Below are positions 12,117-31,394 of a stretch of DNA of 32,102 bases, one piece after another. This DNA is from a virus: positions 1 through 32,102 of the IMG/VR virus record IMGVR_UViG_3300035216_001382; one strand, written 5' to 3'. The notes beneath the pieces were generated by a model. The model did no database searches. It was not told the DNA's origin and worked only from the letters and a program-made list of their open reading frames with translations. The stretch's first letter is position 1, and each line of letters opens with the position of its first letter. Position numbers and translations under genes: made by a program.

Positions 12117-15100
12117 TTAAATATCATAATTTTTTGATCTTAATGGTACAGATCTTTCAATTATCAAACCTGTCGAAATTCCTACCACCCCATTTTGAGT
12201 ATATGCAGGATGAGTTACAATTCCAATTCTTGATTTTAAAATAATTTTACCCCAACTATATGATCCAAATCCACCAGTTCCAATAAATCCTTGAGGATAT
12301 GGTGATGCGAATGAGTCATCAACTTTAACATAAACTCTCCTACAAACAGTTGTTCCAATTCCAACCCCAGCACCATTAAATCCTGTTATTCTCATGACAT
12401 TTTCAACATTATCAACAACATATACATTATCAACAAAAGTTGTACCAACCCCAACAGTATTTCCATTATTGTCTAAAGAAGTTACATTTCTTGCAGGATT
12501 TGGATTAGAATCTGTAACTACAAAATAATCAAATTTAGAAAGACCACTTAAAGTCGATCCAACTCCAACAATACTCGCATCTCTCAATTGAGAATCAAGT
12601 GGGATGTGTAAGTCAAAGATAAAGGATGTTGTAACTCCAATAGTAGTTGTTCCAAATCCAACAATAACACCAGAGTCTCCTGCAAACAAATCTACAGGTC
12701 TTTCTTCAATAGCAACCATTGATGGTGGAGATATTAAAACTACTGGAGGTTTTGATGATGTATATCCTGTACCAGCATTGGTTATAGATAGACCAGAAAC
12801 CACTCCAGAAGCGATTGTAGCAGCTGCTGTAGCAGTTATTCCCCCACCTACTACCTGTTGCACTGTTCCAGCAATACTAACGGTTGGTGTGGTGGAATAT
12901 CCAACTCCACCGTTAGAAATTACCAAAGAAGTAATAGTTCCACTATCAGATACAACAGCTGTAGCAGAAGATCCAACTAGATTAGTTTGTGGGACAAGTT
13001 TAACTTTTTTCTGGAAAAGAACATTAACATCACTTTCATTTTGTGCATCAAACATAGGTCTCAATCTATCAACGTATATTGATGTTGAACCTATACCAAC
13101 GGATTTGGTAATATATGCATATGGATGGATAACTGGTTCATAAAGTTCCCTATCTTTTGAAACTCTTTGCAAGTCAATTAGCAAATCTGCAGTTTGTCTA
13201 CACCAAACAACTGGTCTTTCTAATGTTTCATCTTCAGATAATCCTGAACCAAAATATGGAAATGTTTGAACCTGGTCTGTAGAATCAATTCTAGTAACTT
13301 TCCTAGATGATTCTTGCAAAATATGACTTTGACCCAATTTAGTATCATATCCAATAGTAAGATCATCACCAATTTTTACACTTGCAATTGTGTCTTTAAA
13401 GATAACATCTTGGCCGTCACCACTTCCTTTGTAGAAAATTATTTGACAAGTATCTCCAACTTTAGGAGGTTCTGAAAATGTTAGTATACTGCCACCAGTA
13501 AACTTATATCCTTCTCCTGGAACTTGAAGAATATTATTAACCAAAACTATTACAACTTGTTGGACATCAATTTTAGATCCTCTTGCAGATCTAATTGATA
13601 CAATAAATCCATCTTTTGATAAATTAAATGCTTTAGTTTCCCCATCAAATTTATCAGAAATATCATCTAAAGTTTCTAGGAATCCAAGTGTCCAAGCACC
13701 AAATTCATCAGATAAAACATCTTGAATTGTCAATTCAAAATTATTAAACGTTCCTGATGTTGGTATACCAGTTGTACTACCTGTCGATACTGTAAGTTTT
13801 TGTCCAAGTAAATATCCAGCTCCAGTATTTTTAATTGTAAAGTCTATTACACTAGAACCTTGTCCAACTACTATATCAACTGTAGCATTTGCACCAGATC
13901 CAGATGTTCCAACATATTCCAAAGGAATGTTTGTATATGATAATGGATTATCAAAATAAAGATTTAATGGTTTGTTGACTTTGCCACATCTAGTATAGAA
14001 GTGTTGAACTGTAGAAATTCCAGTTTGAGTAACAAAAGTAGTATCGTTAATAACTCGCAATACGGAAGAACCGCCAGATGCTGGATCTGTTCCACTGATA
14101 GATCTGTTTTTATGTCTAGGTGCTATAATTGCACCTTGAACAGTTCCACCACTTTGATAGAATGTTGGAATTGTAGAAACTCCTGTATTCGCCACAAACT
14201 GAGTAGAACTTAAAATTTGTGTAATTTGAACTCCACAATATGCTGGATCAGTTGTTCTTGGATAAGTATGTGTTGAACCACCATTGTCAAGTCCACAAGT
14301 CATTCCAATTCCAGTCAGTAAAACATCTTTCCCGACTAAGAATTCATGAGCAGCTGATGTAGTGACTGTAGTAACACCAGATGTATTATCATACAAAACA
14401 TTTGTTATAGTTTTTGATGGAGAATATGTGCAAGTAAATGCAATTCCTGAAAGAATTATTTCTTCGCCAATAGTCAATCCATGAGCAGTTGAAGTAGTTA
14501 CAGTCGTTATTCCTGTTATAGAACTATATCCAACATTACTAATTGATTTTTCTGCATAGAATTCAGAATAAGTATTTGCAATTGATACTGAAGTTGATAT
14601 ATGTCCAGTTCCCTTGATGATAGTTGCAATACCTACATGATATAAAGATGTTTCAACTCCAACACTAGTTGAACCTGCATTAACATTTACAATACCAAAC
14701 TTGGGTTCAGTAATAACAATTGAAACCTGAGTTCCTCTATCCATACTGAGAGAACTAGTACCTCCGGTTCCAATCCTAACGAAGGTATTTCCAGTAGAAA
14801 CAATTGGAGTTGGTTGTATATAATTTCCGATAGCAATGTTGCATGAGGTACTATCATCAAGTAGTAAATCAACAATATTAAATACACTATTTGAATTATC
14901 AAGATAAATTTCTGTTGAACCAATTCCAATAGAAGTAGATACATCTGTTAAGATCTCAATCCTATCTGATGCCCTATATCCACTACCAGTATTGGCAACA
15001 CTGATGGATTGTATAGTTCCAGCAGAGGACACAATTGCTGTTCCACCAGCAGATACTAATGGTTGATATCCAAGACCTTCAGTGGATCCAACAGAAGCAA

Positions 15101-18100
15101 GAACGCCACCTAAAGGTATACCTGCAGTGTTAGCATCCGTTGGCGTTGATGCAGCTGCACCGACAAAGGATATAGTTGTTTTACCTGAATCTTCTGTTAA
15201 ATTATAATTTTTTGTTTCTCCTGGTTCTTGTAAAATATCATTGATTAAAATAATGGCATTTTGTGTAGATATTCCAGTGACATTACTAGATTCATTTTCT
15301 TTCAGAGTAAATACTCTATCTGTTCCATTAAATTTAGTTGATAGACTATCATAAACTCTATTTGTATTGTAAGTTTCATTTGCAGAGTTTTCTATACCAG
15401 ATCTTGTAAACACTCTTCCTTGGAAAGAAGAACTTGTAGATATTCCACTCCAATCTCTTTCATCAGGTGGAGATGAAGTTGTTCCAATTGGCGTATTTCC
15501 ATAAGGAGCTTCGTAGAAAGTAATAATATTATCTACAATGTTATAGTTACCTTCAACTTTGGTGACTACATCACCAGTTTGGCCAGTTCCAACTTTAGTG
15601 CCCATCCATCCTCTACGAACTCTTATAAAGTTTGTTTCACCAATTCCAATACCTTCTATCTTCATTATTTCATCATTAATTTTAAATAGATCGGATCCTT
15701 TAAATGAAGTTATTCCAGAGAATGCTACTATATCAGAAACTGAAGTTAAGTTTGTGGAAAGTCCAGTAGTTGTTCCTGTAGAAACAATTGGAGATTGTAT
15801 CATATTATCAATCGCTACCAAACACTTAGTATTTTGGTTTTTAGCAATAAATCTATGAGAAGTTCCAATACCAACACTTTCCAATTTTAATGCAATAGGA
15901 AGTGATGCTAATGCATTTGCTGCAGAAGTGGCAAGTTTGATTTTATCATCATCAACTTTAATGACAAATATATCCTCATTACTTGGCAAAAATGTTGTGG
16001 AACCTGCACCAGCAAACGTTGTTTCTGCAATTCCAACCGAAGAAGTTATTCCTCCGTTACGATCATATCTAACTGCCTCACCACTTACATAGAAGTGATT
16101 TGGGATATTAATAACATTTTCTGTAAGATTTATGATAGAACTATCATTTGCAAGAAAATACTTTTCAAATATTGGAGATTCTACATGTTTTAGATCAAAA
16201 GATCTCATCAAGGAAACATGGGTTCCTTCATATTCTGAAGAATTTGAAACTATCATTCCATTTTTAAAAGAAATTTCATCTCTAGAATCATCTTCAATTT
16301 TTAATCCATTTTTAAACACTTTTGCTTGAACAGCAATACCTGCATTTGGAGTAAATGTTAATTCAGCTCCACCACCAGCAAGAATTCTAGAACCAATAGT
16401 TCCAAGACCAGTATAAGATCCACCATTACTGGCATCAATCATGCCATATTCAGTATCATAAGTTCTAAGTCTTTCATAGTCATCATCGGTGACCAAAACT
16501 TCACTTAAAGTATATCTCTTATTAGTTGTGTCCGAAATTTGAACAATGAAATATGCTGCATCATAATCTGAATTATATGAAGATATTGTGTGTATACCAG
16601 GAGAACCGGAAGAAGCAATATTTGTAGATCTTGCATCAATTTCAACATGTTTCATTGCAGTAGTTCCAATTCCAGTTGAAGAGTCACTACTAATTGCAAC
16701 TTGAATTGTATTTACGGTTACAGCAATTCCAGTAGTTGGAATAAAATCAACCTTAATATTTGTTCCACTAATATAAGGATAGTAAGTTCCAAAACCTATT
16801 CCAGTAAAAGGTCCAGCACCACTAGTTGTTAATTCACCATAATCGAGCATATAAACTTCAGAATCATCATGAATAAGATTGAGTTCATCAAATTGATATT
16901 CATTATTTGTTGTATCTGATACGCATACAAGAACTTTTGCAGATCTATATGTGTTTGCTAAAGAAACTATAGTTTTATCACTTGAAGAAGAAGTTATTGT
17001 TCCAATACTACTTGTTTGAATCTCAACAACTCCACCAAGACTTACTGTAGTTCCAATACCAATTACATTATCATCCAATTGATATGCTATAGATGTTATT
17101 TCATAATTATTAAACTTAGTTAGATTGGGATAAAAAATTAATGACCCATCAGTTCCGTTTATTAAGAAATCGAATGATCCTAATTCTTTTTCACTTTCAA
17201 CTCTACCGTACTGATTAATATAACCAAAACGATTATCATGCAGGAGATCAATAACCATTAATTGTCTCTCCGCAAGGAATCTTTTGTCCCTTAAGAAAAC
17301 AAAATATTTGAGTGCTCTATTTTGTTGAGTTTTAAAACTATCAATCTGAACAAATGTTGTGGCTCTTGGTTCACTATTAAATTGTGAACTAATATCATCT
17401 ATTCTAATAGCTCTATTACCAAAAGATTCGAAATAATCTGTTAAAATTGTGCTAGAAAATATAATTTCGTCAGAATAAATTGTTCCACTAACTGTTCTAG
17501 AGTTTTCTTTTACCAGATCAAAATTATAAACACAATTTAAATCAGCAACTCCATATATTGAGTTAGTAATATTACTATAACTCAAAGGTGGTTTAACTTT
17601 CATGCTGTTTGCGTCAACTTCGCCACGTTCTGCTGGAGTTTCAAATTGCAAATCTGAGAATTTTTTAAATCCAGAAGTATGATTTGTTGCGCTAATTACT
17701 TCATTCCAAGTATCAAAATCTACTCTAGATTTTAAAGAATATGAGAAATTTTGATAGTAATCGCTATCTTGAATTCTTTGTATATTTGTATTGAGGAATC
17801 CAGAATCAGTGAAAGATCCTTTTACAACTTTAGATGTTGGACCTAATTCAATAACAGAATCAAAAGTTGTAACTGAAGATGCTATTCCTTGAGTACCAGA
17901 AGAAAGACCTTTTATTAATTCACCTACTTTAAAGTTTTTATTTGTAGATATCCTTAAAATTCCTTTAACATTATCCCAACTTTCTACAATTCCAGATGTA
18001 TTATCTGAAGTAACTACTTCTTCATCAAAAAAGTTATTATTTTGAAGTTGAATTTTAAATTGAGGGAAATCTCTATTAGAAATTACTCTTGCTGAAGAAT

Positions 18101-21100
18101 TAAAGAGGTCAAATTTGCCTGGAAGTTCTCCAGGTTTTAATAATCCCTTAAGACTATATGAGAATGTTGCTCCAACTCCACCAAGATTTTTATCAACAGC
18201 AATAACAGAGAATAGTTTATAATTATATGCATCAGAATTATATCCTCTTGCTGTTGATCCAATTCCAACACTTACATTTTCAATTAAAACTTTATCACCA
18301 ACCTGAACTGGGAACCTATCACCTAAACTAAATCCAGTTGATAAACCCACAGTAACTTGGTTAGTTTCCGTATTAAAACCAATGGTACTAATTCCGCATC
18401 CATTATTATTGTGAATGGGAATTATGTTAGGTCTAGTGTTGCTTATACCTTTTGTATTATTAATAATATTAACTTCAGTATTGCCAATTTTATACTCCAA
18501 GTCAACATCAGTCACAACTTTATTAGTTCCTCCATCTACAACTACAAGATCAGGAGAAAAAGAGTATCCAAACCCATTGGAACTTACTCCAATAAAATTA
18601 AATGATTTTAAAGATTTTATTTCTACTAAATTTGGAAGAGATGCAGTTGGTCTTAATGTATTATCTACAGGTAAATCAAATCCAATACTTTTAATCTCAG
18701 TTTTATTAATTTTTCCTATAGAAGAACTCGAAGATTCTAATATAGCTCCAACACCAAATGTGGAAGTAATTGTTGTAATTCCAGGTAGTGATAAATAAGA
18801 TTTGCCTGAATTTATAATAGATATTTCTGCAATTGGTCCTTTTGCATGAACACAATCAGTTTCATATTTAATATCAGAAATAGGTGCTGAATATGAAGAT
18901 TTTTCTGGATATTCTTTTGATGTATAAGAAAATGAATTTCCTATAGAAGTTGCAACTCTATGTTTTCCATTAAATTTACTATTGACAATTAAAATTTCAT
19001 TATTTAGATATACATCAGAATCAACTTTTACTTCAGATTTTGATGCAGGTATGTTATTTTTGTATACAGGATCTAATCTATAATATAATTTGTCTGGGGT
19101 TTTTTCGTTAATAAGTATTGACACCTTAGCATCATTATCAATACCAGGTTCTCCAGTTCTTCTTACGTCAAATTGTTTTCCATCAGTAATTTTTCCATTA
19201 TATTTGTTAGTAAAATTCCCATCATAATATAAATTAAACTCAAATGCAGAATAACTTACTGACTCTTTAGTATATGATAAACTATCACTTGAGACATTAA
19301 TATCAACAATAGAATCTCTATAAAATTTTATTGGTGGGTTGATTGGATTAATTGATCCTCCCGATCCTGTGCTAGCAATTCCTACTGTATTTGGAATTTT
19401 ATTAGTAGCACCATAGAAAGTTTCTGATAATTTAAAAGTATTTTCATCTATTGGAGCAACATAATAAACTCCATTATCAACAAGTCCTATCGAAGGATTG
19501 GTACTGTTTGTATAAACAACCTTTTGACCAGAAACAAGTTTATGATTGTCAATAGAAATAACACTTGTTATGGTATTAATACCAGTGGAACCATATGTTA
19601 GTGGATTGATAATAAGATTTCTATTAAAATCATTATATTCTAATGAGAAACTAGAACTGAGTCCTGGATTTATTTTTGTATAGACATTATGTCCAACATG
19701 CAATTCGTGAGGTTCATCTGTGGCAACTGTTACCAGATGCATATTAACTTCACCTTTTATTACATCATAGTTTGTTTTGAGGCTATGATAAGAACCAGTT
19801 CCAATACCAGTAAAGATTAAAGTTGTGATTGATGTTGATGCAATTCCAACAAATATACCAGTTTCGGCAAGTCCAACTCTAACTGTAGATAATCCGATTA
19901 AATTTTCAGATACTTTAGCAACAAAGAAAGATTCCCCAAAATAAGTAAGAGCCACACCAACATTAGTCGCATCAGATACACTAATTGCAGATCCTACCTG
20001 TGAAGAATATGTCAGTCTATCTCCAGTTTTTAAATTATGATTTGGTATAAAAAGTGTTTTATATGGAACGGATATAGTTGTAGTTCCTATTCCTGAAGAA
20101 TTTTCAATTGAAATAGTAGTTCCTATTCCAACTGATCCTGTTGCAACAGTATGTAATGGATTAAAGTATATTTCTTTATTTTCTAAATTGTTGAATGTAG
20201 TATTGATTCCAGAACTGTTAGAAGCAATGAATTTTCTTTGTTTTACAGTAAGTCCAACTCCAACAGTATGAGATACACCAACAACTCCATTAATGGCTCT
20301 TAAAACTCTAATTCTTGATAAATTTGAATCAACGTTTAAAACTTTTACTTCTTCAGATCCAATACCAACAATGTCATTTTCTCTAATGTTTAGGGGAGAA
20401 AGGTCTCCAGAAATTTTAAAATAAGTTACTAAACCTGTATGTCCATCACCAACTGCTCCAGGTTCTCCGACAGTTCCAATTCCAGAAGATGTTGTTCCAA
20501 TTCCAGATAATGAAAATGATTGGTTAGACACTTCTATTGGTAATAAATTTGATAAATCAATTGTTGATGTTGTTATTCCTGTAATCGAAACCAAATCAAT
20601 ATTTCTAAAATTGTGTGGATTATCACAAATTACCAAATACGAATTTTTAGATTTTGGATAAATTTCAACATTACTAATAGTGCTAGTAGCTACACTGATA
20701 TTATTTACAGATTTGCCAAAGATTTTTGATACCTTTGCAGCAGCATCAGAACCATCTGTTCCAAAATCTTGGAATACTAATGAATCATTTACTTTATAAT
20801 TATTTCCACCAGTCAATATACCAATAGAATCAACTCCACCTCTATAAACTGATTTTACTTCAACCTTTTGATTTAAATTATTTGGTAATGAAAGATAGTC
20901 ATATGTTTCTTTTCCATCAAAATAATTATAAGGGTCAGTATTTTTAATTAGATTTGTTTTATTTAAATCATAACCATCTTGGTTAGATATTTTTTTGAAA
21001 TTAAACTCATCTGGTTTTGCATGATAATTTTCCCCAATCAGATATGGGAACATAGGTCTCTTATAACCCAAAAATGGTTCTTGAGAATCTGGAACTGATG

Positions 21101-24100
21101 TATCAATAGTTGCAAAATAACAATATGTCCCTTGAGGATATTCTGGAGTTACACAATGTCTTCCATTGTTCTCATCAAGAACTGATTCATCATTAACATA
21201 CTTATATACAAAATCTTCTATAAAAAATCCTGGAGCAAAAATATCTAGAGGTGGTCGATTATCTTTTAAAACTGCCTCTTCAATATATCCACTTTTCATT
21301 TGAGTAATTGATCCACCATTTAGATTTGAATATCCATATGGACCATAAATTGGATGGCCATCATAAGACCAACCTATTATTGGAGAATGGTTGGTTGATT
21401 CAGTTTCTCCATCAATATTTTTTCTTAAATCATATTCACCATAAAGTTTTTCACCTTCTTGATTGACCGCAAAAACCATTTCTCTTAGTTTTCTCGGTGC
21501 ATAAATGTGAGAATATTGCAACCCATATTCTTCATTTAATCCAGAGTCAATAAATCCATCATCGTTGGAAATACTATTAAAATATTTTTGAAAAAGATTA
21601 ATTTTCCAACTTTGAATGTTTGCATTTAAATTAGCATCATTACCAGGAGAAAGGACGGTAATATTTGTTGAATCTTGAGAATATCCACCCCCAGATTGAA
21701 TAATTTTTATTGAATCAATTCCACCATTACCATCCATGATAGGAGTCAAAATTGCACCGACACCATCTCCATCTATTCTAATATCTGGAGGAGAATTATA
21801 ATTTTTTCCTGAATTTATTACAAATACTTCATCAATTCTTCCACTATTAATTACGGGATATACTCTTGCCCCTTCTCCACCGGTAGCAATAACTTGTGGT
21901 TTTTTATCTAAATTTATAATTTCAGAAGAACCATATCCAACACCATGATTGGTCAAATTGACTGATGTTACTTGTCCTCTAAAAATTGGTTGAATAGAAG
22001 CTTTAAAAGTTTCATTTCCTATTGACGAAATTCCAATTTTTTCGGATAAAGTTACAACTATTTCTGGATAATTAAACGCATGAGTTCCAACACCTACAGA
22101 TGAAATATTAACAATTTGATTAGTTTTATAATAAAATTCTTTATCAACAGTAGATACTCCAACATTAGTTAATTTAAAACTATCATCATCAATTTTAACC
22201 ACATAATATTCTGTTTTATCCACTAAACCAGAAATTGGAGTATCTCCTGCGTAATATTTTACAATTTCTCCAGATTTATAATCATGATTTTTTATAGTAA
22301 TTTTATTTTGTGATGTACTTATTCCAATTACGCCACAAGATTTTTTCTTATTTTCATATCCAGTTCCAGAAGAAACAAGATTAATTCCCTCTATAATTGA
22401 TTTTTTATTAAAAGATTTAAATTTGTGGATACCTATACCATATCCTGTTAATTCAACAGTATTAATTCCTGCAAGAGCATCACTTAAATTTTTATGCAGT
22501 TTTATTTTGGTATTTGTTTCTGACGATATATGATATGTAGAATTTGTTGTTAACCCTGCAATACCATCTTGACCACTTGTTTCATATACTACTTTTTCTC
22601 CATTTTTAAATTTATGATAAGTAGAGAATCCAATTGCACTTAAGGTTCCTAAACCTACTTTACCGGAAGTTGATTCTGAATAAAATGAAACTCTATGATC
22701 AACAAGTTTCATATTTACAGAAACTTTTGCACCATTTCCATTTCCACCAGTAATTGAAATTGTAGGAGTTTCTGTGTAATCAAATCCCGGATTTATAACT
22801 CTTATTTCTCTTAAAGATCCTAAAACAGAAATATCTCCTGTTGCACCTGTACCTACAGGATCAGATATTACTAATGCTGGTGGTGAAATAATATCATAAT
22901 TTGACCCTGGACTCAAAACTTCAATATTTTCTATTTTTCCATAATTTATTTGTTCTTTTGCTTTATAATTTAAAATTTCAACACCATTTACTAAAATTCC
23001 AGTATATCCCGGAACCGTTTTTGTTAATTTTCCAGTATGTTGAGCAATTTTAGGAATTTTTCTAACTAATTTTTGAGAATTGACAGATTTATCTTTAAAT
23101 TCATATATGAAGAATTTATTATTGGTAATTGTAACAGGCCCACCACCAGTAACAGCATTTGTAACCGATAAAAATATATTGTTATAAAGATTAGTTAAAC
23201 TTTTTGATAATTTTATGGTAGTGTTATTTACTTTCTTAACATAATACAATCCTTCAGTAAACTCTGATCCTAAAGAGGTTCCTATGACTACCTTTTCTGT
23301 AACTGTTCTATTAAAATTAATTGTTACTTCAATAGTTCTTTCTGCCTCATAATAAACTCTATCACCTGTTTGGAAGAAATGTTTTCCTAATGGCGTAATC
23401 TCTAGTTCTTCTCCAATAAACTCGCCAGAAAATATTACAGATCTATCTGGTGTATTTGTTGGAGAAGAGCTATAATTAGGAATTGATGCTGAAGTGACCA
23501 TCATATGATCACCACCATCATAAACTCCCTGAACATTTGCAGAATATAACCTAGTTGTTTCTAGAGTATTTGATATTCCTTTTGAAATATTTCTTTGAAT
23601 TGTATAATTTGACAGAGTATCAATTATTCCTTGTCCTTTTATCTGTACAGATTTTTTAGAGGTAATCCCGGTTACTGACGCTTCATTTGAAACATTATTC
23701 TTATCAATTAAATTTAATACATCTCCAACATTATAGTAATGATTATTATTTAAAATAACATTATACGTGTTATCAGAAGAATCCAATAAATCAACTCTTT
23801 TTATTGTATGTTTGGATGCAGTATTATAAATCCAATTATTAAATCTAAAATTATCTGCCAAAGGATTTCCAAGGCTTTTGATTCTTATAATATCGTTAGG
23901 CGCATAGTACCTTGTATTATCTGGAGTAATATATTTTTTTAAAACTGAATTAATTTTAACTTTTATTATTTCATTTTGATCTTTGAAAGATCTACCAAAA
24001 GCATATGTATTAATTCCAACTTCGGAAGCATTTTCAATATTTCCATCTATGTTTGTGCATCCATAAAATTCTGTTACTGATTTTGAGGTATAAGAAACCA

Positions 24101-25184
24101 CTCCAACACTCAAATCCGTATATTTTACTGCCAATTCTCCAGTTTGTCCAAAACCAACAGTAGAATCTACAGTAAATACGGAAGATCCTGCTGAAATTTG
24201 TCCTATGACTTTTGTTTTTGGATGAACTTTAAAGTTTCCATAAAGTGCCCCAGTTACATCAATATCCCTGTCATATCCACCATCTAAACTCAATACATAA
24301 AAGTTTTTATCACCAGTTAAAGAATCAATTTTTTCAACTCTAGTTATAGGAGCAAGTGATTTTTGAAAAGAAATTCCATATTCATATAAATTTTGATATA
24401 ATGTTGCTTGATCCAAATCAAGAGGATCTCCTTCTAATGCTTCTACAACTAAATCATTTGTAATTCTAAAATCTGAATTAGATGGGGTAAATAAGTAATC
24501 TTTTGGTTTTATTATTGATACTTCTCTACCATACAATGCTTTAAATAAAATTTCAAAAGATCTGTCTGTTCCTCTAGTTGCATAAAAATTCTTTGCTTGC
24601 TTTATAAACAAATTTTCATTCAAATTTGGATCTAATGATCTTGTATCAATTAAAGGTAAAAGTTGTTTTTTTGTTTTCTTTAAGAATTCTTTAAGAAAAA
24701 GATTACTTAAATTCTGAATAGTTGTTCCAGATTTATGTTCTTCACTTACAGATTGGGTAAATAATGAATTTTCTATATTTGCATTAGATGTATATGAAGT
24801 TATACCAACAAAACCTCTTATACATCCAGTAAATTCTAAATTAGTTTTTCCAGTATATGTAATAACCTCATTACCAATCTTTAACAATCCATAAGAATCT
24901 GGAAAACCATAAGTACCTTTTGAATTAGGTCCAAATGAAGCAGCTATTGTTTGATCATTAATATCAATATCATCTCTTAAAACTGTAAAATCTACTAGTC
25001 CAGTAGTTTCATCTAATTTGATATATTTGTCAATACTCTCAATTAGATCAATTGGAGCCCCTTTAAATTCTTGAGCAAGATAATATTGCTTTAAAAATTC
25101 AGAAATCAGAGGAAATTCTTCCCTTACATATGAAGGAAGTTGATTTTGTACTATGTTATTAAATTGAACTCTTTTTTCTGTCAT
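12117..25184 (-). CDS. Giant repeat-rich baseplate protein in the gp7 position, with YHYH-like domain
   Basis: 4355 aa, uninterrupted; T4 gp7, which holds this position between gp6 and gp8, is 1032 aa. Residues 1-230 look like a conserved baseplate head domain (QLPSYVREEFPLISEFLKQY; FYATRGTDRSFEILFKALYG at 200-219, the 'KGTxxSxxxLFxxLFG' block common in phage baseplate proteins). Around residues 1265-1410 lies a YHYH-type domain (GWSYDGHPIYGPYG, later GRHCVTPEYPQGTYCY). The rest is mainly beta repeats: about six Hx4Gx2VxY...YxVxxIDxxxxKL modules, about eleven GxGY units, many GIGT[TS] turns, and two 'DxFDG..xFxL...NxILQxPG' modules near residues 3260 and 3890. It begins 14 nt after gp6 and ends 39 nt before gp8. 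A wedge or peripheral baseplate role is well supported by position. Identity with gp7 is inferred. Confidence 0.85.
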   Translation of the reverse strand: MTEKRVQFNNIVQNQLPSYVREEFPLISEFLKQYYLAQEFKGAPIDLIESIDKYIKLDETTGLVDFTVLRDDIDINDQTIAASFGPNSKGTYGFPDSYGLLKIGNEVITYTGKTNLEFTGCIRGFVGITSYTSNANIENSLFTQSVSEEHKSGTTIQNLSNLFLKEFLKKTKKQLLPLIDTRSLDPNLNENLFIKQAKNFYATRGTDRSFEILFKALYGREVSIIKPKDYLFTPSNSDFRITNDLVVEALEGDPLDLDQATLYQNLYEYGISFQKSLAPITRVEKIDSLTGDKNFYVLSLDGGYDRDIDVTGALYGNFKVHPKTKVIGQISAGSSVFTVDSTVGFGQTGELAVKYTDLSVGVVSYTSKSVTEFYGCTNIDGNIENASEVGINTYAFGRSFKDQNEIIKVKINSVLKKYITPDNTRYYAPNDIIRIKSLGNPLADNFRFNNWIYNTASKHTIKRVDLLDSSDNTYNVILNNNHYYNVGDVLNLIDKNNVSNEASVTGITSKKSVQIKGQGIIDTLSNYTIQRNISKGISNTLETTRLYSANVQGVYDGGDHMMVTSASIPNYSSSPTNTPDRSVIFSGEFIGEELEITPLGKHFFQTGDRVYYEAERTIEVTINFNRTVTEKVVIGTSLGSEFTEGLYYVKKVNNTTIKLSKSLTNLYNNIFLSVTNAVTGGGPVTITNNKFFIYEFKDKSVNSQKLVRKIPKIAQHTGKLTKTVPGYTGILVNGVEILNYKAKEQINYGKIENIEVLSPGSNYDIISPPALVISDPVGTGATGDISVLGSLREIRVINPGFDYTETPTISITGGNGNGAKVSVNMKLVDHRVSFYSESTSGKVGLGTLSAIGFSTYHKFKNGEKVVYETSGQDGIAGLTTNSTYHISSETNTKIKLHKNLSDALAGINTVELTGYGIGIHKFKSFNKKSIIEGINLVSSGTGYENKKKSCGVIGISTSQNKITIKNHDYKSGEIVKYYAGDTPISGLVDKTEYYVVKIDDDSFKLTNVGVSTVDKEFYYKTNQIVNISSVGVGTHAFNYPEIVVTLSEKIGISSIGNETFKASIQPIFRGQVTSVNLTNHGVGYGSSEIINLDKKPQVIATGGEGARVYPVINSGRIDEVFVINSGKNYNSPPDIRIDGDGVGAILTPIMDGNGGIDSIKIIQSGGGYSQDSTNITVLSPGNDANLNANIQSWKINLFQKYFNSISNDDGFIDSGLNEEYGLQYSHIYAPRKLREMVFAVNQEGEKLYGEYDLRKNIDGETESTNHSPIIGWSYDGHPIYGPYGYSNLNGGSITQMKSGYIEEAVLKDNRPPLDIFAPGFFIEDFVYKYVNDESVLDENNGRHCVTPEYPQGTYCYFATIDTSVPDSQEPFLGYKRPMFPYLIGENYHAKPDEFNFKKISNQDGYDLNKTNLIKNTDPYNYFDGKETYDYLSLPNNLNQKVEVKSVYRGGVDSIGILTGGNNYKVNDSLVFQDFGTDGSDAAAKVSKIFGKSVNNISVATSTISNVEIYPKSKNSYLVICDNPHNFRNIDLVSITGITTSTIDLSNLLPIEVSNQSFSLSGIGTTSSGIGTVGEPGAVGDGHTGLVTYFKISGDLSPLNIRENDIVGIGSEEVKVLNVDSNLSRIRVLRAINGVVGVSHTVGVGLTVKQRKFIASNSSGINTTFNNLENKEIYFNPLHTVATGSVGIGTTISIENSSGIGTTTISVPYKTLFIPNHNLKTGDRLTYSSQVGSAISVSDATNVGVALTYFGESFFVAKVSENLIGLSTVRVGLAETGIFVGIASTSITTLIFTGIGTGSYHSLKTNYDVIKGEVNMHLVTVATDEPHELHVGHNVYTKINPGLSSSFSLEYNDFNRNLIINPLTYGSTGINTITSVISIDNHKLVSGQKVVYTNSTNPSIGLVDNGVYYVAPIDENTFKLSETFYGATNKIPNTVGIASTGSGGSINPINPPIKFYRDSIVDINVSSDSLSYTKESVSYSAFEFNLYYDGNFTNKYNGKITDGKQFDVRRTGEPGIDNDAKVSILINEKTPDKLYYRLDPVYKNNIPASKSEVKVDSDVYLNNEILIVNSKFNGKHRVATSIGNSFSYTSKEYPEKSSYSAPISDIKYETDCVHAKGPIAEISIINSGKSYLSLPGITTITSTFGVGAILESSSSSIGKINKTEIKSIGFDLPVDNTLRPTASLPNLVEIKSLKSFNFIGVSSNGFGYSFSPDLVVVDGGTNKVVTDVDLEYKIGNTEVNIINNTKGISNTRPNIIPIHNNNGCGISTIGFNTETNQVTVGLSTGFSLGDRFPVQVGDKVLIENVSVGIGSTARGYNSDAYNYKLFSVIAVDKNLGGVGATFSYSLKGLLKPGELPGKFDLFNSSARVISNRDFPQFKIQLQNNNFFDEEVVTSDNTSGIVESWDNVKGILRISTNKNFKVGELIKGLSSGTQGIASSVTTFDSVIELGPTSKVVKGSFTDSGFLNTNIQRIQDSDYYQNFSYSLKSRVDFDTWNEVISATNHTSGFKKFSDLQFETPAERGEVDANSMKVKPPLSYSNITNSIYGVADLNCVYNFDLVKENSRTVSGTIYSDEIIFSSTILTDYFESFGNRAIRIDDISSQFNSEPRATTFVQIDSFKTQQNRALKYFVFLRDKRFLAERQLMVIDLLHDNRFGYINQYGRVESEKELGSFDFLINGTDGSLIFYPNLTKFNNYEITSIAYQLDDNVIGIGTTVSLGGVVEIQTSSIGTITSSSSDKTIVSLANTYRSAKVLVCVSDTTNNEYQFDELNLIHDDSEVYMLDYGELTTSGAGPFTGIGFGTYYPYISGTNIKVDFIPTTGIAVTVNTIQVAISSDSSTGIGTTAMKHVEIDARSTNIASSGSPGIHTISSYNSDYDAAYFIVQISDTTNKRYTLSEVLVTDDDYERLRTYDTEYGMIDASNGGSYTGLGTIGSRILAGGGAELTFTPNAGIAVQAKVFKNGLKIEDDSRDEISFKNGMIVSNSSEYEGTHVSLMRSFDLKHVESPIFEKYFLANDSSIINLTENVINIPNHFYVSGEAVRYDRNGGITSSVGIAETTFAGAGSTTFLPSNEDIFVIKVDDDKIKLATSAANALASLPIALKLESVGIGTSHRFIAKNQNTKCLVAIDNMIQSPIVSTGTTTGLSTNLTSVSDIVAFSGITSFKGSDLFKINDEIMKIEGIGIGETNFIRVRRGWMGTKVGTGQTGDVVTKVEGNYNIVDNIITFYEAPYGNTPIGTTSSPPDERDWSGISTSSSFQGRVFTRSGIENSANETYNTNRVYDSLSTKFNGTDRVFTLKENESSNVTGISTQNAIILINDILQEPGETKNYNLTEDSGKTTISFVGAAASTPTDANTAGIPLGGVLASVGSTEGLGYQPLVSAGGTAIVSSAGTIQSISVANTGSGYRASDRIEILTDVSTSIGIGSTEIYLDNSNSVFNIVDLLLDDSTSCNIAIGNYIQPTPIVSTGNTFVRIGTGGTSSLSMDRGTQVSIVITEPKFGIVNVNAGSTSVGVETSLYHVGIATIIKGTGHISTSVSIANTYSEFYAEKSISNVGYSSITGITTVTTSTAHGLTIGEEIILSGIAFTCTYSPSKTITNVLYDNTSGVTTVTTSAAHEFLVGKDVLLTGIGMTCGLDNGGSTHTYPRTTDPAYCGVQITQILSSTQFVANTGVSTIPTFYQSGGTVQGAIIAPRHKNRSISGTDPASGGSSVLRVINDTTFVTQTGISTVQHFYTRCGKVNKPLNLYFDNPLSYTNIPLEYVGTSGSGANATVDIVVGQGSSVIDFTIKNTGAGYLLGQKLTVSTGSTTGIPTSGTFNNFELTIQDVLSDEFGAWTLGFLETLDDISDKFDGETKAFNLSKDGFIVSIRSARGSKIDVQQVVIVLVNNILQVPGEGYKFTGGSILTFSEPPKVGDTCQIIFYKGSGDGQDVIFKDTIASVKIGDDLTIGYDTKLGQSHILQESSRKVTRIDSTDQVQTFPYFGSGLSEDETLERPVVWCRQTADLLIDLQRVSKDRELYEPVIHPYAYITKSVGIGSTSIYVDRLRPMFDAQNESDVNVLFQKKVKLVPQTNLVGSSATAVVSDSGTITSLVISNGGVGYSTTPTVSIAGTVQQVVGGGITATAAATIASGVVSGLSITNAGTGYTSSKPPVVLISPPSMVAIEERPVDLFAGDSGVIVGFGTTTIGVTTSFIFDLHIPLDSQLRDASIVGVGSTLSGLSKFDYFVVTDSNPNPARNVTSLDNNGNTVGVGTTFVDNVYVVDNVENVMRITGFNGAGVGIGTTVCRRVYVKVDDSFASPYPQGFIGTGGFGSYSWGKIILKSRIGIVTHPAYTQNGVVGISTGLIIERSVPLRSKNYDI
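12725..12930 (-). repeat. Adjacent GxGY repeats near the C-terminus of the giant protein
   Basis: Two units lie back to back: NGGVGYSTTPTVSIAG and NAGTGYTSSKPPVVLISPP. They are the best-preserved tandem pair of the family. Further units are at about 13790-13840, 14945-15000, 18770-18820, 20775-20820, 21650-21705, 21770-21825, 21915-21958, 22752-22800 and 22865-22920. Confidence 0.7.
14150..14530 (-). repeat. Tandem 'TTVTTSxAHxLxxGxxIxLxGI' repeats
   Basis: Two neighbouring copies are seen in the giant protein: ITTVTTSTAHGLTIGEEIIL with SGIAFTC, and VTTVTTSAAHEFLVGKDVLL with TGIGMTC. Each is followed by a Cys-containing beta segment and 'TQxVxxTGxSTxxxFY'. They are a clear internal duplication. 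Such H-[GE]-[LF] modules are widespread in marine phage tail proteins. Confidence 0.7.
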
Positions 25185-25198
25185 TTTAGATTTTTATA

Positions 25199-27316
25199 TT
25201 AATAACCTGATGAATATCCGCCACCACCACCACCAGATGATGGAGCGGATGGGGTAGATGGAGTAGAACCAGTAGAACTAGTAGTAGTAGTTGTCTGAGT
25301 GGAAGGTGAATAACTTCCAGAGGATGTTGTAGGAGTTATGGAAGATGTGGATGAATCAGATATTGGTGTAGAAGGAATACTTCCTCTACCTCCTGGTCTA
25401 ACTAATGCCCCATTTGCATAACTTGATGTAATAATATAACTTGATGCTGATGGATCTATTCCCGATGAAATTTGATCAATAACCATATCAAACTTACTAT
25501 TACCAATATCTAGTTGTAAATACAAGTCTTGTAAACCAATCACATCATTGGATTTAGGACATCCTGATACTTCAATAATAGTTTGACCATCTTTTGTTTT
25601 TCCAGAAAGGATATTAATAGGATTTATAGTTATAATTCCTTTTTTATAATTAATAGTTCCTATTCCTCTTTTTACAATAAATGGACTTGTTGAATTTATA
25701 TTTGGAACTGAAAATAAAAATAATTCTCCAGTTTCTTGATCAGTGTTTGGAATGTCTGAAATGTAAACATCAGAACCAATACCATCGACTCTAAATGCTG
25801 AAGTTTTAATGTTGTAACCATTCATACTTTTTATATAGAACTCGTTACCGAAACCAATACTATATTCAACTAAAGCATTTGATGTTATTTTTAAATCCCT
25901 CCTCATTTGAATTGTAGTAATATTTGATGTTATCGAATCATGGCTTTCATCAATAACTTTTAAAAATTTACTATATTTTAACCTTGCACCATACTTATTT
26001 AACTCATTAGATTCTGAGTACTTTTGGACATTTTGTTGAATTAAAGTAGAAACATAAGATGAACTAGGTGCTGAATTTGAATTGTAATATATATTTGAAT
26101 TTACTTCAATATAAAGATATTTTAAATCTAGTATCTCTGGAACAATTCCTGCTACAGAATATTTTTTTAGTTTGGTTTTTATATTTTGTTTAATTAAATT
26201 TGATAAGAAATCACCGTATCTTGGTTTAATGCTTATAAAAACTTTTCCATATTGGGGGGGATTTAGTTCTTCACCACCAAATACTGATATCGATTCAGTT
26301 TCTGGATAAATTTTTGCTGGTATAAGAACTTCATAATCACTGGAAGTTAAAGCCCTGTCTTGTGTTGCATACATTCTAGGTGCAAAGTTTTTAATTGAAT
26401 TTACAGACTCAATTACTTCTCCACCAGATGCTGGTAATTCTGCAGATATTAAAGATATTCCACTTGTAATTGTATATTCAGTGCTATTTCTAGTATAAGT
26501 TAATTTTCCAGAAAAAGTAAATTGATTTACACCATTTGCAGAATCTCCATTAGATACAATATAATTTGTATTAATATAATTTCCCTCTCGTAGACTTTTA
26601 CCAAAAATACCATCTCCAAAAATTATTTGATATCTTTCATCAGAAATTTCTTGTAGATAATATACCTTTGATTCAGAATCAATATCAAAAAGATTATCTG
26701 CAAAACTATATTTTGGTCCTATATTTGATGTTTTAGTATTCCTCACTCTTACTGAAATTAAATTAGTATCAATACCAGAATTTGGAAGAATAAATTTTTG
26801 ATTTGGGTCAAATGAAGAATATGTATAATTTTTCTCTAGTAACACACCTTCATAAATTTCAATATTATTAAAACTTGCAATCCCATCAGCAACTGGAACT
26901 GAAATATCTTCTAAAATTGAAAAAACAAATGATTGATTACCAAAAACTGCAGTTGATGATGCAACTGTTCCTTTTTTAAGAGTGATTGATGCTGGTGTTG
27001 GTAATATATTTGATGCATCAACAAAAAAACTTACAATGGATTTTGCTGCTTTTCTTGATCTAGGGAGATATCCAATATTTCTTGCTAAAGCAACTACATT
27101 TTCTCTAAGAGTTGCAGTATCAATGAACACCTCATTTGCAACCATGTTTGCATTATATGAGGTTATATACGTGTTATACGCCAAAACATCAATAATCGAT
27201 GAAAGGTTAGATCCTTCAAAATCATAATCGGTAAAATTGGAGTTAGATCTCAAATATTCTACAAGAGAAGTTTTAATTTGAGAAAAATCCAGATTGGAAA
27301 AATTTACTAGTGACAT
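25199..27316 (-). CDS. 6: gp6-like baseplate wedge protein (J-like) with Ser/Thr/Gly-rich tail
   Basis: 705 aa; T4 gp6 is 660 aa. gp6 (baseplate J family) forms the ring that holds the wedges together around the hub. The N-terminal half carries the expected signature: LSSIIDVLAYNTYITSYNAN, VANEVFIDTATLRENVVALA, RNIGYLPRSRKAAKS. The centre has the expected YYLQEISDERYQIIFGDGIFG block, and 'ALTSSDYEVLIPAKIYPETE' follows. The last 60 or so residues (from GRGSIPSTPISDSS) are unusual: a low-complexity Ser/Thr/Pro run ending in SGGGGGGYSSGY. The ATG is 1 nt from the gp25 stop, with AGG from the end of gp25 acting as a possible ribosome site. The order gp25-gp6-giant-gp8 mirrors the T4 wedge genes. 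Confidence 0.93.
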   Translation of the reverse strand: MSLVNFSNLDFSQIKTSLVEYLRSNSNFTDYDFEGSNLSSIIDVLAYNTYITSYNANMVANEVFIDTATLRENVVALARNIGYLPRSRKAAKSIVSFFVDASNILPTPASITLKKGTVASSTAVFGNQSFVFSILEDISVPVADGIASFNNIEIYEGVLLEKNYTYSSFDPNQKFILPNSGIDTNLISVRVRNTKTSNIGPKYSFADNLFDIDSESKVYYLQEISDERYQIIFGDGIFGKSLREGNYINTNYIVSNGDSANGVNQFTFSGKLTYTRNSTEYTITSGISLISAELPASGGEVIESVNSIKNFAPRMYATQDRALTSSDYEVLIPAKIYPETESISVFGGEELNPPQYGKVFISIKPRYGDFLSNLIKQNIKTKLKKYSVAGIVPEILDLKYLYIEVNSNIYYNSNSAPSSSYVSTLIQQNVQKYSESNELNKYGARLKYSKFLKVIDESHDSITSNITTIQMRRDLKITSNALVEYSIGFGNEFYIKSMNGYNIKTSAFRVDGIGSDVYISDIPNTDQETGELFLFSVPNINSTSPFIVKRGIGTINYKKGIITINPINILSGKTKDGQTIIEVSGCPKSNDVIGLQDLYLQLDIGNSKFDMVIDQISSGIDPSASSYIITSSYANGALVRPGGRGSIPSTPISDSSTSSITPTTSSGSYSPSTQTTTTTSSTGSTPSTPSAPSSGGGGGGYSSGY

Positions 27317-27317
27317 C

Positions 27318-27719
27318 TTACCTAGTTGGTTGCAAAACGAATTCTAATTGTTGTGGGGATACATCTACCCCTATAATATTATATGTAATTACTACATCAA
27401 ATGAATTATTATCAAAATCAGGATCTACTTTTATTTTTTGTAAAGAAACCCTTGGCTCATTATTTTGGATAGAAAATTGAATTTCACTCCTAATCGAATC
27501 GGCAGAAAGATCATCGATATTTTCAAATAATGATCTAGATATCTTTGATCCAAATTTTTCATCAAAGAACTTTTCCCCAGGAAGAGTAAATACAATATTT
27601 CGTATAGAACGAGCAATTGCATTTTCGTTTTTTAGTGCAATTATGTCATTTGTTAAGGGGTTGACCTTAAATGACATACTTACATCTTTAAAACCTTGAC
27701 TTATCCTCTCTAAAGGCAC
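27318..27719 (-). CDS. 25: gp25-like baseplate wedge protein
   Basis: 133 aa, against 132 in T4. It is a gp25/TssE-type protein; in contractile injection systems this wedge component joins the inner baseplate and starts the sheath. The sequence shows the family layout: an N-terminal strand region (GFKDVSMSFKVNPLTNDIIA), a helix (NENAIARSIRNIVFTLPGEK, then FDEKFGS), and the diagnostic EPR motif in NNEPRVSLQKIKV near residue 91. A GATAAATA late promoter lies 21 nt before the ATG and AAGG lies 5 nt upstream. gp6 follows at once. Confidence 0.95.
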   Translation of the reverse strand: MPLERISQGFKDVSMSFKVNPLTNDIIALKNENAIARSIRNIVFTLPGEKFFDEKFGSKISRSLFENIDDLSADSIRSEIQFSIQNNEPRVSLQKIKVDPDFDNNSFDVVITYNIIGVDVSPQQLEFVLQPTR

Positions 27720-29804: not shown

Positions 29805-29893
29805 AGATTTTTTTCTGCGGGAATTTTTTTTTTATCTTTATATATCGATCGCGAATTGTCACCTCTGTAGGTTAGGGTAGTTAAGCGTTTTTA

Positions 29894-29926
29894 TCACGCC
29901 GCCCGCGCCCATAACAACGCCCCCCC
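29894..29926 (-). other. G-rich stretch with possible G-quadruplex
   Basis: The minus strand has a run of seven G, then CGTTGTTAT, GGG, CGC, GGG, CGG. This gives four G3 tracts with loops of 1, 9 and 3 nt. One loop exceeds the usual limit of 7, so folding is uncertain. The island is sharply GC-rich in an AT-rich genome. Confidence 0.45.
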
Positions 29927-30024: not shown

Positions 30025-30201
30025 CTACCACCGGACAGGATTACTCAGGTCCTCTACGTAGCTATCAATCACCTGCTCATTTCCCTCCAGTTCAAAGAGA
30101 TCTTCCCAGTTAATCTGATGCGGGTCAAAGTCTTCCATCACCTCTAAATCTAGGGTGATTCTGTAACGTTGCTTCTGGACCTGACTGATAGCGACTGACA
30201 T
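30025..30201 (-). CDS. 58-aa acidic protein
   Basis: I start at the ATG at 30201 (MSVAISQVQKQRYRITLDLE) because the longer frame back to 30231 would begin inside the promoter -10. The protein is strongly acidic after residue 20 (DFDPHQINWEDLFELEGNE) with a C-terminal YVEDLSNPVRW. Small acidic proteins of this make-up recur in marine phages, without known function. There is no Shine-Dalgarno. A TTGACA-N17-TATACT promoter is immediately upstream. An 11-nt sequence in the leader is complementary to the last codons and stop codon. Confidence 0.7.
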   Translation of the reverse strand: MSVAISQVQKQRYRITLDLEVMEDFDPHQINWEDLFELEGNEQVIDSYVEDLSNPVRW

Positions 30202-30218
30202 GATTGGTGTCCGGTGGT
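30027..30218. repeat. 11-bp inverted repeat flanking the 58-aa gene
   Basis: ACCACCGGACA at 30027-30037 and its exact reverse complement TGTCCGGTGGT at 30208-30218. One arm covers the stop codon region and the other lies in the 5' leader, 7 nt before the ATG. Confidence 0.75.
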
Positions 30219-30230
30219 GATGACTTAACA

Positions 30231-30259
30231 AGTATAGTATGCCTGAGAGATATTGTCAA
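30231..30259 (-). promoter_or_regulatory. Sigma70-type promoter (TTGACA-N17-TATACT) for the 58-aa gene
   Basis: Minus strand TTGACA (30259-30254), 17-nt spacer, TATACT (30236-30231). Transcription would start about 25 nt before the ATG at 30201. Confidence 0.78.
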
Positions 30260-30316: not shown

Positions 30317-30338
30317 GACTTATGGCGGCGGTCTTGAC
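30310..30338. repeat. 8-bp inverted repeat made around the two divergent -35 elements
   Basis: GTCAAGAC (30312-30319) and GTCTTGAC (30331-30338) around an 11-nt centre. The arms include most of each TTGACA and extend past it by three bases (GAC), so it is more than a by-product of the -35s. It could be an operator. Confidence 0.6.
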
Positions 30339-30362
30339 ATTTCTGCGAGTTGGTGATAGACT
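30334..30362 (+). promoter_or_regulatory. Rightward sigma70-type promoter (TTGACA-N17-TAGACT), no gene downstream
   Basis: The only good plus-strand promoter I see in the window. TTGACA 30334-30339, 17-nt spacer, TAGACT 30357-30362. It reads into the DnaA-box cluster; no plus-strand gene follows. Confidence 0.5.
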
Positions 30363-30426
30363 GCTCGCTAAGATCACAAGACCTGAGTACATTTAAATCA
30401 TCACTAATTAACACATAAGAACATAC

Positions 30427-30490
30427 TTATCCACAGAAATACACCTTTCTCCACAGATAAATGATACCTTTTCCACAGACATGTGAATAA
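30427..30490. other. DnaA-box-like cluster (candidate origin or DnaA-responsive site)
   Basis: Four 9-mers: TTATCCACA (30427-30435), TTCTCCACA (30447-30455), TTTTCCACA (30469-30477) on plus, and TTATTCACA on minus (30490-30482). The first and last fit the general bacterial box TTATNCACA exactly; the third is the form described for Synechococcus elongatus (from memory). The three plus-strand boxes start 20 and 22 bp apart, about two helical turns, and each continues as CCACAGA. An AT-rich stretch follows directly. Confidence 0.6.
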
Positions 30491-30550
30491 CAGTATAAAA
30501 TAGCAAAACATATTTATAATACCATTTAAAAACGTTTTTCAATCAATTAG
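30491..30550. other. AT-rich stretch with 12-bp palindrome next to the DnaA-like boxes
   Basis: Mostly A and T, with the palindrome AAAAACGTTTTT at 30528-30539 and a minus-strand TATAAATA at 30518-30511. It could act as a duplex-unwinding element; this rests on position and composition only. Confidence 0.45.
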
Positions 30551-30563
30551 TGTAGCAGTTGAT

Positions 30564-30589
30564 ACAAAAAGAGAGGAATTACCCTCTCT
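30564..30589 (-). terminator. Rho-independent terminator after the 30-aa gene
   Basis: On the minus strand AGAGAGG, a short loop and CCTCTCT form a 7-bp stem followed at once by TTTTTG. It ends leftward transcripts from the small-gene cluster, 30 nt after the stop of the 30-aa gene, and insulates the origin-like region. Confidence 0.75.
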
Positions 30590-30619: not shown

Positions 30620-30712
30620 TCAATAGAGTGCCTCAATTGCTTCAAGGATGAGTAGAATATCATTACCATTCTCTGCTGAATCAAGTGCATCAAAGAGTTG
30701 AACTTTAGACAT
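30620..30712 (-). CDS. 30-aa micro-ORF before the terminator
   Basis: ATG at 30712, TGA at 30620-30622. It begins MSKVQLFDALDSAENGNDIL and ends LILEAIEALY; it is one acidic amphipathic helix pair with good Leu/Ile spacing. It has no Shine-Dalgarno, but its G-free leader of 29 nt matches the two genes upstream, and a terminator follows closely. These two points are the evidence that it is a gene. Function unknown. Confidence 0.55.
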   Translation of the reverse strand: MSKVQLFDALDSAENGNDILLILEAIEALY

Positions 30713-31046: not shown

Positions 31047-31394
31047 TCATGCGAAGGTATAACCATTAGTAAATGTATCGTTCTTGAATACATTCTTACC
31101 ATTGATTGCACCTACGAATAGTCTTACATACCACTGAAAGTCTTTTTGGAAAACTCCTTCCCCAGTGACACAAAACTCAGAGCAAAGTGCATTGAGTCTT
31201 GATTTAGTTGTATTAGACTGATAACCACCATCAAAGATTTGCATATCATCATCTGTAACAATTGCAATCAAATTGTTATGAAGATAGACTTCTGAAGTGT
31301 TACGAATAGGTGAATAAATTACACGAGTATTTGCATTTGACCAGTCCTGATTGTTGTGAATAGCAGCACACATTTGGGATTCGATCTTACGCAT
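31047..31394 (-). CDS. 115-aa conserved hypothetical protein
   Basis: It begins MRKIESQMCAAIHNNQDWSN and includes NTRVIYSP, VYLHNNLIAIVTDDDMQIFD, TTKSRLNALCSEFC and GVFQKDFQWYVRLF. The pattern (a helix, a TRV strand, a 'VYLHNNxIA' strand pair, then 'TKSRLNAL' helix and 'FQKDFxWY') is one I recall as a recurrent unnamed protein in cyanophages and pelagiphages. There is no membrane segment. Its leader is a G-free C/A-rich tract of 39 nt with a repeated CACAACT. The 59-aa gene follows after a 78-nt gap. Confidence 0.8.
   Translation of the reverse strand: MRKIESQMCAAIHNNQDWSNANTRVIYSPIRNTSEVYLHNNLIAIVTDDDMQIFDGGYQSNTTKSRLNALCSEFCVTGEGVFQKDFQWYVRLFVGAINGKNVFKNDTFTNGYTFA

Follow-up and report, generated by a model that had tools for sequence, protein, structure and literature searches.

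A conserved promoter-driven element with phased predicted DnaA boxes as a candidate replication origin of T4-like cyanophages

Introduction

Replication of phage T4 has been described as beginning from promoters, R-loops and recombination (PMC3016281). At T4 oriF, a promoter is followed by a downstream unwinding element and priming occurs from an R-loop; oriE combines evenly spaced 12-nt repeats with an early promoter, and these repeats are kept in related phages (PMC3016281). Among the T4-like cyanophages, what has been described of the start of replication is limited to a single origin predicted in Syn9, and motA is absent from cyanomyoviruses (PMC2984593). DnaA boxes are part of a software-predicted origin in one Pseudomonas phage (PMC11512268). 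In cyanobacteria the DnaA box is TTTTCCACA, with in vitro support from Cyanothece and Anabaena (PMC4674748). In a search of open-access literature, the papers naming both cyanophages and DnaA boxes were, judged by title and abstract, not about a phage origin, and nothing on the locus described here was found for cyanophage transcription maps or for lytic phages using host DnaA.

We analyzed a viral DNA of 32,102 bases (hereafter, the window), an IMG/VR record; such records are often fragments, and the single-copy count given below comes from complete relatives. The window contains a promoter-leader-array-AT unit that is a real, conserved and, within a literature search limited to an open-access library, apparently undescribed cis-element.

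Results

Genomic context of the element

By DNA similarity, the window virus is a T4-like cyanomyovirus related to S-SM2 and Bellamy, and 29.8-30.4 kb is shared with S-SM2, Bellamy and SynMITS9220M01 at 69-78% identity. The gene order is that of S-SM2: gp6 (25199-27316), gp25 (27318-27719), a 232-aa protein, a 256-aa protein, small genes, the element and, to its right, a member of the 115-aa family phrog_554 (31047-31394). In the window, gene 25 is no more than about 3 kb away from the element; in T4, oriF likewise neighbors gene 25, next to uvsY.

Several other features of this neighborhood were observed. Left of gp6 there are very long minus-strand open reading frames of 2539 aa (2901-10520) and 4355 aa (12117-25184). 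A second conserved noncoding block at 29808-29898 (TTATATATCG...CCTCTGTAGGTTAGGG) matches S-ShM2, S-RIM14, S-SSM2 and others at about 76%, and Syn10, which has no box element, shows a stretch resembling it. Directly right of the element, a 30-codon leftward open reading frame (30620-30712, minus strand) resembles, by eye, a short open reading frame at that place in S-SM2.

Anatomy of the element in the window

The element consists, in order, of an extended -10 sigma70 promoter, a leader of ~35 nt, an array module, an AT-rich module and a leftward terminator. The first-pass annotation, made from the sequence alone, had described a cluster of DnaA-box-like 9-mers beside a divergent promoter pair, and both promoters are present. 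The rightward promoter (30334-30362, plus strand), a conserved core of the element, has the hexamers TTGACA (30334-30339) and TAGACT (30357-30362), a 17-bp spacer and an extended -10 TG; since it fits sigma70 at both hexamers, it is not of the MotA-dependent middle-mode type. As the annotation had also remarked, it has no gene to serve, there being no rightward gene downstream of it within the window. Its leftward partner (TTGACA-17-TATACT, 30259-30231, minus strand) is sigma70-like with 11/12 consensus bases and faces a small leftward gene (30025-30231, minus strand). The rightward promoter is followed by a conserved leader, GCTCGCTAAGATCACAAGACCTGAGTACATTTAA (30363-30397, plus strand), which is predicted to be transcribed and carries no notable open frame. 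In the window's transcript region no RNA fold stood out above shuffles (z = -0.08) and Rfam gave no convincing family match, and a structured noncoding RNA was rejected for the window on these grounds.

All four of the 9-mers that had been noted were found, and they occupy exactly 64 bp (30427-30490). Predicted DnaA box 1, TTATCCACA (30427-30435, plus strand), lies in a TTWTCCACA column that is kept in 14/14 aligned relatives. Box 2 (30447-30455, plus strand) is a degenerate copy, TTCTCCACA, with one mismatch, and in the alignment it has the consensus TTATCCACA in relatives L015, L073, L308 and L149. Box 3 (30469-30477, plus strand) is TTTTCCACA, the exact cyanobacterial consensus, and is invariant in the alignment, and predicted box 4, TTATTCACA (30482-30490), is in reverse orientation on the minus strand and reads TTCTCCACA or TTTTCCACA in several relatives. 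The three plus-strand copies start 20 and 22 bp apart, which had been taken to place them on one face of the helix; the spacing is as described and the helical phasing holds in relatives.

Immediately to the right lies an AT-rich module (30491-30560; 77% AT), a candidate DNA-unwinding element containing the 12-bp palindrome AAAAACGTTTTT (30528-30539) that the earlier reading had also placed there. In S-SM2, S-SKS1, S-BM3 and Bellamy the corresponding module belongs to the 0.009-0.1% of 60-mers that melt most readily; its rank is weaker in Syn33 and S-8S55 (about 1-1.6%) and in the AT-rich window (top 2.75%). A rho-independent terminator directed against leftward transcription coming from the right (30570-30589, minus strand), with equivalent hairpins in relatives, shields the element from that transcription, and the right-hand genes terminate before reaching it.

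Conservation and module exchange

Pattern and HMM searches with the promoter plus leader recovered 127 distinct copies of the element, which is single copy in 6/6 complete genomes. Two parts stay constant and are also its best-conserved portions: the promoter, with TTGACA and TAGACT about 17 bp apart, and the leader CTCGCTWAGATCACAAGACCTGAGCACATTTAA. An alignment of 14 relatives showed the box columns conserved in fixed register, with a variable length of DNA before the array. The AT-rich module is mainly of type A or type B, and the window carries B. The variable middle holds one to four TTWTCCACA boxes in 69 of the 127 copies, and the remaining 58 have no such box at +50 to +260. Conservation in related phages had been proposed as a check on the first-pass annotation: boxes, spacing and layout are indeed kept, once per genome, but the absence of boxes from those 58 elements means that this holds for only part of the family.

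In Bellamy, SynMITS9220M01 and many other relatives the promoter, leader and AT-rich module are kept and the DnaA boxes are absent, so that the boxes are one of several interchangeable modules and not an invariant feature. Other repeat arrays fill the box slot in many of these boxless relatives. Some copies carry 11-bp repeats of the form nAGnnAC in the variable middle, where 23 lags of 10-12 were counted, compared to 0.09 on average and at most 1 in shuffles. Rarer arrays after the same promoter and leader are TGTGTTACACA-type repeats (L020, L282), TATGTGCCCCACATA repeats (L300) and GAGAACnnTTCTC dyads (L002, L070, L079). Box types and AT types occur in varied combinations, which suggests mosaic exchange. 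At the other extreme, the virus contigs L122 (around 581-890) and L109 (around 12899-13218) have up to seven exact TTTTCCACA boxes on either side of the conserved promoter in a stretch of about 310 bp, a density that is oriC-like. At the syntenic place in Syn10, S-PM2, P-RSM1 and S-CAM7 we found no box array or convincing element; as Syn10 is presumably of the same type as Syn9, the element is not tied to the origin predicted for Syn9.

Further variation was noted within individual modules. The leader unit is in tandem as GGTTTATAAGAGTATTAGAGAA in S-SKS1 (L010, 1870-1990) and as ATCACAAGRYCTGAGTACATTAA in L024, L045 and L064. In A-type AT modules such as those of L042, L062 and L072, inverted arms ~50 bp apart co-vary by eye (CTCAAATA/TATTTGAG and CACAAATA/TATTTGTG), a pattern suggestive of a hairpin or cruciform. 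A T4 late promoter within the AT-rich module (TATAAATA, minus strand) was rejected: by eye, the motif is found in the B type, including the window, but is not conserved in the A type, and it is therefore not a constant feature.

Box frequency, spacing and identity

The looser motif TTWTNCACA has four matches in the window, three of them within 64 bp, compared to about 6.7 expected. TTWTCCACA is rare in the six complete relatives (2-9 copies per 170-208 kb), and TTTTCCACA itself occurs 0-7 times per genome among twelve cyanophage genomes. In the six complete genomes, TTWTCCACA pairs closer than 64 bp were found only at the element, in S-SM2, S-SKS1, S-BM3 and Syn33, and the expected number of pairs within 64 bp is 0.002-0.022 per genome. 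We also scanned 85 cyanophage loci, nearly all of them fetched via the neighboring phrog_554 gene and not via boxes, with an HMM built on the promoter and leader alone, the boxes being left out (cut-off E < 0.01). The element was detected in 36/85 loci, with boxes within 260 bp in 19 of these 36, and box density in the 36 loci was ~150-fold higher inside elements (37 in 9.4 kb) than outside (5 in 194 kb). Conversely, an independent scan for box pairs alone led back to the conserved promoter in many hits with several cyanophage-like open reading frames.

The same-strand spacings of the phage boxes fall almost entirely into three classes, 11-12 bp (9), 20-22 bp (24) and 40-43 bp (24), which together hold 57/60 with 3 others; the boxes are thus phased. 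The boxes of the window fit the cyanobacterial consensus TTTTCCACA/TTATCCACA, and in 50 cyanobacterial genomes the spacing of TTWTCCACA pairs is likewise mainly 11-12 and 20-22 bp. In three of the cyanobacterial sequences (L459, L467, L469) dnaN adjoins the box clusters. Three-box arrays of TTTTCCACA with spacings of 20-21 bp also occur outside oriC in L463, L464, L465, L466, L471 and L472, with guaA as the nearest large upstream gene in L463 and L472; they may represent a conserved site for titration of DnaA or for regulation. Since cyanobacteria carry such arrays outside oriC, an array alone is no proof of an origin. The consensus match, the spacing repertoire, the fixed register and the seven-box phages would make binding of host DnaA the simplest reading of these sequences.

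GC skew

The GC skew, which had been put forward as a check, gave no sign of an origin at this place: it is monotonic in the six complete genomes, with no minimum and no switch at the element, and third-position skew is likewise unchanged there. Changes of third-position domain lie instead near 20 and 115 kb in S-SM2 and Bellamy. The skew is mostly set by one-way transcription, and a skew switch is common at DnaA origins but not required; we regard this analysis as uninformative or mildly against an origin.

Discussion

These data lead us to propose, as the probable reading, that the element is a promoter-driven replication origin of T4-like cyanophages which uses host DnaA in the window's lineage. 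The locus combines a host-type box cluster, phased spacing and an adjacent AT-rich unwinding candidate, as in a DnaA-type origin; a promoter (30334-30362) with an AT-rich module (30491-30560) close downstream, as in a T4 R-loop origin; and, in relatives, evenly spaced repeats with an early promoter, as in an iteron origin of the T4 oriE type, the kind of repeat depending on the lineage. The DnaA- or iteron-origin layout suggested by the first-pass annotation is thus borne out in its consensus boxes, its phasing and its arrangement of promoter and AT-rich DNA, but the skew does not support it and the boxes are not invariant.

We infer the following course of initiation from this layout. The strong early-type sigma70 promoter would produce a rightward RNA that serves no gene and that would cross the conserved leader and the four-box array into the easily melted AT-rich module. 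Host DnaA may bind the phased boxes on one helix face and open the AT-rich stretch, aided by transcription, and the transcript, perhaps persisting in an R-loop like that of T4 oriF, could then prime the leading strand. The phage replisome would be loaded onto the displaced strand, and the terminator would keep leftward gene transcription out. Other lineages combine the same promoter and AT-rich module with an alternative array, which a different initiator would presumably recognize. It is possible, with a little less than even confidence, that T4-like cyanophages share one modular origin, in which promoter, leader and unwinding region are constant and a cassette of ~100 bp that binds the initiator, with host-oriC-like or other repeats, can be swapped.

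A chance cluster of DnaA-like 9-mers might be suspected, as TTWTNCACA itself is not over-represented in the window, but it can hardly be credited given the conserved register in relatives, the phasing and the enrichment at one element; the box-pair counts, spacing, alignment register and density inside versus outside elements refute it, and the cluster is real. It is very improbable that the boxes are read by a different regulator with a DnaA-box-like motif. The exchangeable arrays would allow a phage-encoded reader, but box sequence, variants (TTTTCCACA, TTATCCACA) and spacing repertoire are identical to those of cyanobacterial DnaA arrays at oriC, and the regulator box of merely similar appearance that the first-pass annotation had offered as an alternative is disfavored for this reason.

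The remaining explanations accept DnaA and dispense with an origin. The element could titrate DnaA as a datA-like decoy, or change its nucleotide state as DARS does, and so stop host replication, an alternative that had also been raised at the outset. The three-box arrays away from oriC in cyanobacteria, such as those near guaA, demonstrate that arrays of this kind exist outside origins, and a phage genome at high copy would presumably multiply DnaA sites. We consider this quite unlikely, however, because titration accounts neither for an invariant promoter and leader, nor for the AT-rich module, nor for the replacement of the boxes by unrelated arrays in the same slot, and because the element provides only 3-4 boxes in each genome. 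DnaA-responsive control, in which the boxes act as a roadblock or operator tuning the rightward promoter and a short regulatory or antisense RNA, with no replication start, is in our view also unlikely. It would suit the position of the boxes, some 60-120 bp beyond the predicted transcription start, the best conservation being that of promoter and leader, and the operator-like, dyad-like repeats of some alternative arrays (L020, L282, L300 and the GAGAACnnTTCTC type), but the transcript region offers no detectable fold, convincing Rfam match or gene to control, and a purely regulatory site would leave the constant AT-rich module unaccounted for.

If a host-DnaA array does function in a T4-like origin, phage replication would be tied to host replication and to the light-dark cycle. 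If the modular reading is correct, exchange of a ~100-bp cassette would let phages alternate between the host initiator and others, and the swapping of arrays flanked by an unvarying promoter and AT-rich module would reveal how phages change initiators. The element also offers an exact DNA target for tests of DnaA binding and of replication start.

The proposed origin can be compared with several described types. Like T4 oriF and oriG, it is a short noncoding unit of a T4-type genome in which a promoter precedes an AT-rich downstream unwinding element. The T4 origins, however, rely on a MotA-dependent middle promoter and lack initiator boxes, whereas the element has a plain sigma70 extended -10 promoter and a predicted DnaA-box array before the AT-rich DNA. 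Given this sigma70 promoter and the lack of motA in cyanomyoviruses, it would not be a member of the oriF type and may only work like one. With T4 oriE it shares an early promoter and short direct repeats at even intervals; the oriE repeats are 12 nt long and have no known reader, whereas those of the element are predicted host DnaA boxes and, in other lineages, 11-bp or other repeats. Phage and plasmid origins such as P1 oriR combine DnaA boxes and iterons with an AT-rich region and an adjoining Rep gene. The predicted use of host DnaA beside repeat arrays and an AT-rich region is common to both, but Rep is encoded beside the P1-type origin, whereas none was identified at the element and the phage has a T4-type replisome. 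With cyanobacterial oriC, finally, the element shares the box TTTTCCACA/TTATCCACA and the spacings of 11-12 and 20-22 bp, and it differs in that the window has only four boxes, one of them degenerate, with no dnaN adjoining and a strong promoter reading through.
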